From Dehalococcoidales bacterium (GTDB lineage: Bacteria; Chloroflexota; Dehalococcoidia; Dehalococcoidales; RBG-16-60-22): a stretch of DNA of 5,304 bases. Both the position numbers and the translations under genes were made by a program. Of this stretch, positions 1,198-3,255 are shown piece by piece (the first letter of the stretch is position 1; each line of letters begins with the position of its first letter). The notes under the pieces are model-generated. The model worked only from the letters and a program-made list of their open reading frames with translations. It did no database searches and had not been told where the DNA came from. Location of the stretch: contig JAUVXN010000084.1 in NCBI GenBank assembly GCA_030603605.1, positions 1-5,304 of the forward strand, read 5' to 3'.

Positions 1198-1227
1198 TTG
1201 ACAAACATCAAAAGTTTTTGATATAAT
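1198..1227 (+). promoter_or_regulatory. Promoter of the arsR unit
   Basis: A perfect -35 TTGACA (1198-1203) and a perfect -10 TATAAT (1222-1227) are separated by 18 bases. The spacer is almost filled by the inverted repeat at 1207-1222. Transcription should start near 1234, so the GTG at 1233 and ATG at 1236 would lie at the very 5' end of the message, while the ATG at 1263 would have a normal short leader. A bound repressor would occlude RNA polymerase, as expected for ArsR autoregulation. Confidence 0.85.
1207..1222. promoter_or_regulatory. ArsR operator 1 (autoregulatory)
   Basis: ATCAAAA-GT-TTTTGAT is a perfect 7-2-7 inverted repeat between the -35 and -10 boxes. It fits the ATCAA-N6-TTGAT shape reported for many arsenic-type ArsR repressors. 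A near-copy in front of the permease at 1774-1789 differs at two adjacent central bases only, which strongly supports a functional binding site. The cognate protein is inferred to be the ArsR encoded immediately downstream. Confidence 0.8.
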
Positions 1228-1262
1228 ATCCAGTGATGGAGAAGAAGCAGGGTAAGAGTTCA

Positions 1263-1538
1263 ATGACTGAGACTCATGCTAGCGTGTTCAAGGCACTGGC
1301 TAATTCAAGCCGATTAAAGATCATCAGTTTACTGTCTCGGCATGAGGAGCTTTGCGTGTGTGAACTGGAGGCCGCCCTGGGACATAAGCAACCCCTGGCG
1401 TCCTACCATCTGGCTGTTTTGGAGGATGCGGGGCTGGTTACTCACCGGGAGGTGGGAACGTGGTCCTATTATAAACTAAATGAGGAGAGGCTCACAGAGC
1501 TTCTGTCACCGCGATGCTGTGGCTCTCTATTTAGATGA
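1263..1538 (+). CDS. arsR: ArsR-family metalloid-responsive repressor
   Basis: This is a small winged-helix repressor of the ArsR/SmtB family that should leave DNA when it binds trivalent arsenic, antimony or organoarsenicals. Numbering from the ATG at 1263 (91 residues), FKALANSSRLKIISLL is the family's first helical signature, ELCVCEL carries the Cys31-x-Cys33 pair characteristic of metalloid-sensing ArsR, and QPLASYHLAVLEDAGLV is the recognition helix, followed by a beta-wing (REVGTWSYYKL). A vicinal Cys85-Cys86 pair near the C-terminus (SPRCCGSLFR) could supply a third ligand. Alternative starts at GTG 1233 and ATG 1236 add ten residues, but the promoter predicts transcription beginning near 1234. 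I prefer 1263, which has weak AGGG/AAGAG signals upstream. The next gene follows closely. Confidence 0.9.
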   Translation: MTETHASVFKALANSSRLKIISLLSRHEELCVCELEAALGHKQPLASYHLAVLEDAGLVTHREVGTWSYYKLNEERLTELLSPRCCGSLFR

Positions 1539-1552
1539 CAGGAGGCATTGAT

Positions 1553-1717
1553 ATGAGTAAGAAAGAGAATGAAAAGAGCAAGGATTCAGAGGGCTTACAG
1601 GCGGCAATAAAAAGGTTCTTCAGGGTGAAGGGTGGTGGCTCTTGCTGTAAGGTAAGAATTGAAGAGGTGGAAGAAGAGAAAACGGGAGACAAAGCAAAGA
1701 CCACCGAGAAGAAGTAG
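1553..1717 (+). CDS. Small charged protein with Cys-Cys motif in ars unit
   Basis: A 54-residue, highly charged protein (Lys/Glu rich) begins at ATG 1553-1555, seven bases after a strong CAGGAGG (1539-1545). An in-frame ATG at 1535 overlaps the arsR stop as ATGA, but the ribosome-binding site lies downstream of it, so 1553 is the likely start. The middle is an amphipathic segment (GLQAAIKRFFRV) followed by GGGSCCKVRIEEVEEE, with adjacent cysteines at residues 31-32. No signal peptide or membrane segment is visible. I know no named function. Cotranscription with arsR and the vicinal thiols suggest trivalent-arsenic or metal binding, for example delivery to the permease, but this is inference. 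Similar short CC-plus-acidic proteins are, as I recall, found beside ArsP-type permeases. Confidence 0.7.
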   Translation: MSKKENEKSKDSEGLQAAIKRFFRVKGGGSCCKVRIEEVEEEKTGDKAKTTEKK

Positions 1718-1730
1718 CCTAATCCACAAG

Positions 1731-1763
1731 AAGCCTTGTCATATCGAGGCAAGGTTTCTTTTT
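1731..1763 (+). terminator. Rho-independent terminator after the arsR unit
   Basis: AAGCCTTG (1731-1738) pairs with CAAGGTTT (1750-1757) in an eight-pair stem with one G-U pair and an 11-base loop, followed by CTTTTT (1758-1763). It lies 14 bases after the stop of the small Cys-Cys gene and ends just before operator 2. It would end or attenuate transcription from the arsR promoter, leaving the permease separately controlled. Confidence 0.65.
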
Positions 1764-1773
1764 AGCACTTTAA

Positions 1774-1789
1774 ATCAAAAGTAGTTGAT
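1774..1789. promoter_or_regulatory. ArsR operator 2, before the permease
   Basis: ATCAAAAGTAGTTGAT matches operator 1 at 14 of 16 positions and keeps the ATCAA-N6-TTGAT palindrome exactly. The similarity continues into the next bases (ATATAA in both), and each operator's last T is the first base of a -10-like box: TATAAT at operator 1, TATAAA (1789-1794) here. The -35 region is poor (CACTTT at 1766-1771). A start near 1801 would leave the AAGGAAG ribosome-binding sequence out of the message, so the exact promoter is uncertain. The site could also act as a roadblock to read-through. Confidence 0.75.
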
Positions 1790-1808
1790 ATAAAAGGAAG
1801 CAGTTATT

Positions 1809-2759
1809 ATGGACATTATGGACAAGTTGGCGGAAACTGGTTATTGGTTTGTTTACATCTCTTTAGAATTAACCATTCTTTTCCTAGTTATCAGCTTCAT
1901 TATAGGAGTAATAACTACCTATTTTTCCCCTCAGAGGATAAAAAGCACATTGGAAAGGCACGGCAAGGGCCCCCTGGGGAATGCTCTGGGGGCAACGCTT
2001 GGTGGCTTGTTGCCATTCTGCTCCTGCTCGAGCATTCCTGTGTTAATAGGCTTAATCAATGTAGGAGTGCCTTTCAGGATTGCAATGTCCTTTCTCGTAG
2101 CTTCCCCCCTGGGAGTATTTAACCCGGTAGTCATCTCCCTATTTTCCGCTCTGTTTGGCTTAAGGGTCGCCCTCGCTTATATCGTGACCACCTTCATAGC
2201 CGCAGTCCTGGCTGGAATGGTCCTTAATTGGCTGGGCTTAGCTGGCCAAACAAGGAAAGTAGTTGCAACCGGAGGAGCCGAGAATATCGATGCCATAATA
2301 GTAGCTGAGGGGACTACCAGATGGGAGAGGATTAAGCCCAGGTTGAGTAAATCGTGGAGGTTTACCCGGGACTTATATAAAAAGATGCTTCCTTTCATGC
2401 TGGGTGGCGTCGCTGTAGGGGCGCTCATCCATGGCTTTGTTCCTGAGGGCTTCCTTGCCCAATACGCCGGACAATCAAATCCGTTTGCGGTTCCCCTGGC
2501 GGCAGCAATAGGGGTGCCTATGTACATCAGAACATCTACTCTGATTCCCATTGCTTCGGCACTGGTTGAGAAGGGTGTAGGCCTGGGAACAGTGATGGCT
2601 CTCATAATTGGTGGAGCCGGGGCGAGTATTCCAGAGCTAAGCTTACTTGCAGCGATATTTAAAAAGAAGTTATTTATCGCCTATATAATAACCATATTCC
2701 TGATAGCCACCATAATTGGGCTGCTTTTTAATTTCCTGGCGGGGCAGCAATTACTTTAG
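1809..2759 (+). CDS. COG0701/ArsP-type permease (metalloid or metal efflux)
   Basis: A 316-residue integral membrane permease of the DUF318/ArsP_1 (PF03773) superfamily. The family includes organoarsenical exporters and SO_0444-type transporters. It has roughly eight hydrophobic segments (near residues 16-38, 57-82, 90-113, 118-143, 193-212, 224-240, 258-282, 287-311), with a hydrophilic central loop (145-190). The first conserved reentrant motif is GGLLPFCSCSSIPVLIG, with Cys71 and Cys73, the expected thiol pair for trivalent substrate. The matching motif in the second half (GVPMYIRTSTLIPIA) has no cysteine. The start is ATG 1809, with AAGGAAG eight bases upstream; ATG 1818 is an alternative. 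Control by ArsR through operator 2 suggests arsenic or a methylated or aromatic arsenical as substrate, but sequence cannot fix this. A metal-specific paralogue remains possible. Confidence 0.85.
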   Translation: MDIMDKLAETGYWFVYISLELTILFLVISFIIGVITTYFSPQRIKSTLERHGKGPLGNALGATLGGLLPFCSCSSIPVLIGLINVGVPFRIAMSFLVASPLGVFNPVVISLFSALFGLRVALAYIVTTFIAAVLAGMVLNWLGLAGQTRKVVATGGAENIDAIIVAEGTTRWERIKPRLSKSWRFTRDLYKKMLPFMLGGVAVGALIHGFVPEGFLAQYAGQSNPFAVPLAAAIGVPMYIRTSTLIPIASALVEKGVGLGTVMALIIGGAGASIPELSLLAAIFKKKLFIAYIITIFLIATIIGLLFNFLAGQQLL

Positions 2760-2924: not shown

Positions 2925-3143
2925 ATGCCCAGACCCCCGAAATGCCGTCGAGTGGCGTTCTTGCCCGATGTAACCTACTTTAAGCCAGCTGGCATACCGC
3001 TGAGGGCTCTTGGAGAGGTGCGGCTGTCAGTAGAGGAAGCTGAGGCGATACGCCTTAAAGACCTGGAGAGCTTCGAGCAGGAGCAAGGGCGGGGAGATGG
3101 CAGAAGCCGCCGGGGCTCCCCTGCTGGGGCAATTCCCTATTGA
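2925..3143 (+). pseudogene. DUF134 (UPF0251) protein, truncated at N-terminal 54 residues
   Basis: The first 54 codons are a clear DUF134/UPF0251 N-terminus: MPRPPKCRRVAFLPDVTYFK, then PAGIPLRALGEV, then the acidic helix RLSVEEAEAIRLKDLESFEQEQ. Full family members are about 90-150 residues and continue into AAxxMxVSRxTFxRILxxARxKVAxAL, a helix-turn-helix resembling sigma factor region 4. Here that helix-turn-helix is missing: after Gln54 the frame runs into 18 unrelated residues and stops at 3141-3143, while the same DNA in another frame encodes an Mrp C-terminus. AAAGGA (2911-2916) lies eight bases before the ATG. A stable, DNA-binding product is unlikely. Confidence 0.85.
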
Positions 3144-3255
3144 CCCTGAAATTGCCCGACTCTGCGACGCAGGCGATATTGAGCGCTACGACTCAGAGCC
3201 GCTAAACAGCTTTGCTGAGGCTTTCCTGCAGGTAATACCGGATGGAGCTAAATAA
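3085..3255 (+). pseudogene. Mrp/NBP35-type P-loop ATPase, C-terminal remnant
   Basis: Reading from 3085, 56 codons encode KGGEMAEAAGAPLLGQFPID, then PEIARLCDAGDIERYDSE and a short tail, ending at TAA 3253-3255. This matches the C-terminal end of Mrp/NBP35/ApbC ATPases, where G-G-x-x-[LM]-A-x-x-x-G-x-P-[FL]-L-G-x-[IF]-P-[IL]-D-P-x-[IV] is followed by D-[AS]-G. These enzymes bind and transfer Fe-S clusters. The P-loop, the switch motifs and the CxxC are all gone, so the fragment cannot hydrolyse ATP. It begins exactly where DUF134 homology stops, in a different frame. ATG 3097 has GGGCGGGG just upstream but is probably only the internal methionine of the lost protein. Confidence 0.75.

Follow-up and report, generated by a model that had tools for sequence, protein, structure and literature searches.

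The window, by which the whole stretch of DNA analyzed (5,304 nucleotides) is meant, carries two near-identical inverted repeats, one before arsR, a gene encoding a repressor of the ArsR/SmtB family, and one before a gene encoding an ArsP_1 family permease. The repeats are taken as a real operator pair, probably associated with two promoters under one repressor. On balance, a single metal(loid)-responsive ArsR seems to act through both operators, repressing P1, the promoter of arsR and of a small GSCC protein, and a separate permease promoter at site 2. The mechanism is ordinary, a tidy version of a known metal-resistance switch, and the window is a clear case of a recurring layout. It offers a simple natural example of a metal(loid) sensor and a transporter split under one repressor, and the comparison with relatives allows the operator to be predicted for a group of ArsRs encoded by uncultured bacteria.

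Operator sites and genes of the unit

The two 16-mers (Table 1) differ at 2 of 16 positions, are separated by 567 bp, and are identical at 18 of 20 positions once the trailing ATAA is included. Operator 1 is a perfect 7-2-7 palindrome; operator 2 retains ATCAA-N6-TTGAT, all ten outer positions being intact, and lacks the perfect arms. This pattern is found in the window at operators 1 and 2 only. Dinucleotide shuffling of the window (2000 rounds) produced at least one ATCAA-N6-TTGAT in 18 cases and two in none; the stretches preceding arsR and the permease gene, shuffled separately (2000 times each), never yielded one. A best match to operator 1 with no more than two mismatches was found in 2 of 300 whole-window shuffles. 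The original prediction had described two 16-mers sharing 14 of 16 bases, located on both sides of a terminator and in the same register to a following -10-like box, the second one without perfect arms. All of this holds, and the pair exceeds what chance provides.

Table 1. Features of the arsR-permease region
Feature	Positions	Strand	Remarks
P1 -35, TTGACA	1198..1203	+	12/12 consensus together with TATAAT; spacer of 18 nt; -10 preceded by TG
Operator 1, ATCAAAAGTTTTTGAT	1207..1222	+	Inside the P1 spacer, touching the -10
P1 -10, TATAAT	1222..1227	+	Extended, TGATATAAT from 1219
arsR	1236..1538	+	ArsR/SmtB repressor; ELCVCEL box, SYHL recognition-helix motif, C-terminal CC
Gene for 54-residue protein	1553..1717	+	GGSCCKV motif; presumed arsR co-transcript
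Intrinsic-terminator hairpin	1728..1760	+	13-bp stem, then TTT
Operator 2, ATCAAAAGTAGTTGAT	1774..1789	+	
Proposed P2 -10-like box, TATAAA	1789..1794	+	Extended, TGATATAAA from 1786; putative promoter element
Shine-Dalgarno-like AAGGAAG before the permease gene	1794..1800	+	P2 RNA would be expected to start 3' of it
Permease gene	1809..2759	+	ArsP_1 family, 316 aa

The spacer that holds operator 1 belongs to a consensus sigma-70 promoter, the sole 12/12 match detected in the window by a promoter scan. TGnTATAAT is matched with no more than one mismatch at seven places in the window, both strands considered; among them is the extended -10 of site 2, for which the promoter scan found no -35. The hairpin separating the two units is stable (-17.4 kcal/mol, matched by none of 200 shuffles), which suggests that the permease gene needs a start of its own. 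RNA from P2 would be expected to start at about 1801, just past the Shine-Dalgarno-like AAGGAAG, and to have a leader of about 8 nt. The arsR mRNA made from P1 may also be nearly leaderless if the ATG at 1236 is used, the TATAAT ending 8 nt before it. The window comes from a metagenome, and its source is probably a Dehalococcoidia-like member of the Chloroflexota: among the 120 relatives listed for its MBL-fold protein, the four with an organism name (76-80% identity) are assigned to Chloroflexota or Chloroflexi (three) and to Dehalococcoidales (one). A table of PMC3160421 reports leaderless genes for 4 of 12 Chloroflexi genomes and gives a value of 4.7%; by these figures, a leaderless start of the permease gene or of arsR is possible, if uncommon.

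The ArsR of the window belongs to the ArsR/SmtB family by its scores against PF01022 (55.6 bits, cut-off 22) and NF033788 (96.5 bits, cut-off 55). The starts predicted for homologues point to 1236 as the start of arsR, an alternative ATG being located at 1263. The C-x-C pair of the metal box is invariant in all 34 aligned rows, and the residue in between is V in 33 of them and T in P0061. In the window protein the box reads CVC and has no third Cys; in As(III)-type ArsRs of the E. coli type I kind, the site comprises Cys32, Cys34 and Cys37 in helix alpha3, as described in the part of PMC12607644 consulted. Of the 25 closest rows (the window protein and P0030-P0053), 22 have two cysteines at the C-terminus, which might be a source of metal ligands. 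The Y of the SYHL motif is kept by 30 of 33 aligned relatives.

The 54-residue protein matched no Pfam family at 0.01 and no NCBIfam family at 1, and NCBIfam gave no name to three of its look-alikes either. Look-alikes of this GSCC protein are found beside ArsP_1-type permeases (L001, L002, L003, L005, L011, L036 and L171), hosted by archaea (Methanosuratincola or Methanomethylicota-like) or by a Firmicutes genome and its relatives. They are encoded upstream of the permease gene, or downstream of it (L036), and in the archaeal loci a regulator of PadR-like appearance takes the place of ArsR. The small protein might deliver metal(loid) to the permease. The latter is assigned to ArsP_1 by PF03773 (192.9 bits, gathering cut-off 32.3). 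It stays below the cut-offs of the two NCBIfam models that it matches, those of the SaoE (107.9 bits, cut-off 325) and SO_0444 (106.9 bits, cut-off 300) efflux equivalogs. Exporters of the ArsP kind transport trivalent organoarsenicals; for the window permease, no relative of solved structure was found at E 0.001.

The operator and SYH-type repressors in relatives

ArsR-like loci were collected from 299, 297, 249 and 198 genomes sampled by phylum, the first and third samples overlapping, and from 39 and 17 genomes sampled by class, plus locus L039. The loci are the best matches listed for each genome search (30 asked each time), among which the ArsR-type set comprises 148 loci and 140 unique domains. 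The 220 bases before each ArsR domain were scanned for TCAA-N6-TTGA. The 23 of the 140 domains lacking a parsed helix motif were counted as other than SYH-type.

Among the unique domains listed, the site lies upstream of 9 of the 17 that are SYH-type and of 1 of the remaining 123 (Fisher p ~5e-9), the exception being L123, which features SHHL. The association persists when 99 ArsR-type domains are clustered at 80% identity (8 of 13 SYH versus 1 of 86 others). The SYH grouping had been formed on L039 and L050-L079; in the held-out loci L080-L196, the masked L175 being left out, the site precedes 3 of 6 SYH and 1 of 70 other domains (Fisher p 0.001). Although the pattern did not require them, the outer A and T are present at every site with the 8-base core in the stretches scanned. 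Comparative support is therefore good for ATCAA-N6-TTGAT as the putative operator of SYH-type ArsRs, that of the window included. Two observations count against the scheme, the lack of TCAA-N6-TTGA upstream of 8 of the 17 SYH-type loci listed (in L175 the DNA is masked there) and its presence at the non-SYH L123.

Inspection by eye of 13 distinct sites of relatives (the L137 copies of L131 sites uncounted) revealed perfect 7-2-7 arms in two only, the upstream site of L077 and that of L123. Since they vary so, the inner six bases say little about affinity, and arm symmetry was dropped as a guide to it. The proposal that the permease could be derepressed at a lower inducer level than arsR, drawn from the imperfect arms of site 2, is for the same reason unsupported.

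Sites located just 3' of arsR were found in 3 of 17 SYH loci (L077, L131 and its near-copy L137) and in none of the 123 others listed, at 27 bases from the arsR stop in L077 and 43 bases in L131. In L131, a TACACT box lies before each of the two sites; after the second site come AAGGAG and a gene which, by reading, resembles those of P-type ATPases. The downstream site of L077 is part of a longer palindrome, possibly a hairpin, which makes L131 the better parallel. In L039 and L171 a tandem pair of sites, 22 bp apart, is found before arsR. L171 belongs, with L035, to genome G015. The three genes of the arsR-permease region recur there: arsR, the gene of a small protein of the GSCC kind, and that of a permease with 62% identity to the one in the window. 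They lie on two contigs that share sequence at their ends, and are thus probably adjacent. No site of the ATCAA-N6-TTGAT type is found in G015 between the small gene and the permease gene, and this too counts against the scheme: the window has one site per unit, G015 a tandem pair before arsR. In L171 the ArsR domain runs on into a C-terminal extension, within an open frame of 240 aa.

The sites of L039, L050, L060, L077 and L131 follow a -10-like box or lie beside a ribosome-binding-like sequence, and none of them resides inside a -35/-10 spacer (all by eye). A genome scan based on the permease listed 25 loci, the best 65% identical; none of the 25 has two ATCAA-N6-TTGAT sites, and one site was found in L006, the same locus as L050, and in L020. 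At a contig end of genome G019 (L199), a 68-residue piece is 85% identical to the window permease. No close relative of the window ArsR was detected in viral contigs, and a plasmid search in near mode gave no match. The 20-letter pattern ATCAAAAGTNNTTGATATAA matched nine stretches of viral DNA, which were set aside as chance after viewing of the surrounding bases; the match in L033 directly precedes a ribosome-binding-like sequence and an ATG.

Control of the permease gene

Sites, hairpin, gene families and the link of the operator to SYH-type ArsRs can be read in the sequences; from them we infer that ArsR would bind the two copies of ATCAA-N6-TTGAT, that site 2 would have a promoter, and that both would respond to an inducer. 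At operator 1, ArsR positioned between the -35 and -10 of P1 would repress its own unit, made up by arsR and the small GSCC protein and ending at the terminator hairpin. At operator 2, which overlaps the extended -10 beyond the terminator, it would repress the separate promoter of the ArsP_1-type permease. Binding of the inducer by the Cys box would free both operators, and thus sensor and transporter would be induced together, at levels that could be set separately. The original prediction had envisaged a two-promoter regulon controlled by one ArsR. The two sites are supported by the comparison, through the SYH link and the sites found after arsR; the promoter at P2 is only likely, as the extended -10 is alone and AAGGAAG lies 5' of about 1801.

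Repression of a separate permease promoter is probably the best reading of site 2. Its main rival takes site 2 as a promoterless operator, at which bound ArsR would block polymerase reading through from P1 and thereby lower leakage of the permease. The missing -35 and the leader of about 8 nt, starting just past the Shine-Dalgarno-like sequence, count against P2 and suit a road block of this kind, AAGGAAG being usable only by RNA that starts further upstream. In L050 and L060, sites also lie beside ribosome-binding-like sequences (by eye). Given the sites of the five relatives above, none of them inside a -35/-10 spacer, the position of site 2 beside AAGGAAG fits a site without an overlapping promoter of its own as well. 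Moreover, a second ArsR site downstream of arsR cuts the background of an E. coli bioreporter (Stocker et al. 2003, as cited in the part of PMC3918153 consulted); site 2 would then be its counterpart in nature. Yet the terminator hairpin is stable and should therefore leave little read-through to block, and the ATAA following site 2, identical to that of P1, makes a good extended -10. Blocking of read-through is accordingly a minority reading, unlikely enough for a separate permease promoter to be preferred.

Two further readings concern the origin of site 2. It could be a disused remnant of a rearranged operator pair, as the tandem sites of G015 before arsR and the absence of a -35 would allow, but the ten outer positions are intact and the site is found at the start of the permease unit, which makes decay improbable. 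The two sites could also be alike by chance, or because extended -10 promoters are rich in AT, as both intergenic stretches are (GC 0.24 and 0.33). This can be given hardly any credit, as two sites were found in 0 of 2000 shuffles of the window, and one in 0 of 2000 of either stretch, and the operator is linked to SYH-type ArsRs in relatives.

Related systems and neighboring features

The window resembles the autoregulated ars operons of E. coli R773, K-12 and B. subtilis in that ArsR is encoded by the first gene and an inverted-repeat operator resides at the promoter. These operons have one operator region each, according to the parts of PMC3918153 and PMC12607644 consulted, whereas in the window the genes are divided by a terminator, and a site of its own precedes the permease gene. 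Closer in layout is the bioreporter pPR-arsR-ABS (Stocker et al. 2003, cited in PMC3918153, consulted in part), in which two ArsR sites bracket arsR, the second before the output gene. By the same account that construct is man-made, its second site having been added against background, while the arrangement in the window is natural and includes a terminator and a -10-like box. No paper describing this arrangement was found in the literature searched, which is not proof of its absence.

Among natural loci, L131 and the near-copies L132 and L137, reached via the Actinobacteria genome of L012, have an SYH-type repressor and ATCAA-N6-TTGAT both before the repressor gene and before the next one; the latter is P-type ATPase-like, not an ArsP_1 permease gene as in the window. 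In Thermus thermophilus the gene TTC0354 encodes a metal-transporting ATPase. One ArsR/SmtB protein, TtSmtB, binds there its own promoter and the adjacent TTC0354 promoter (PMC5658604, consulted in part, also for what follows). Its operator is unlike that of the window, being of the 6-2-6 type, with TTGCTCAA in the footprint, and binding to its own promoter, which is devoid of the palindrome, is weaker.

The tie between SYH and ATCAA-N6-TTGAT could help to predict other ArsR-type regulons and to pick operators for biosensors. It is tempting, if doubtful, to go further and take SYH as part of a specificity code for ATCAA-N6-TTGAT which holds across phyla, and the operon as repeatedly split (in the window, in L131, perhaps in L077) so that sensor and transporter each have their own operator and the transporter is timed separately.

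Downstream of the permease gene, a perfect 28-base palindrome, TGTATTATGAGCATATGCTCATAATACA, spans positions 2882-2909, just before a DUF134 gene. Of the perfect gapless palindromes of the window it is the longest, and it is probably a regulator site. The DUF134 gene (2925-3255) matches profile positions 6-55 of 98 only, and overlaps a small frame weakly resembling the C-terminal end of Mrp/ParA-type ATPases; the two look like a decayed or deleted gene pair.
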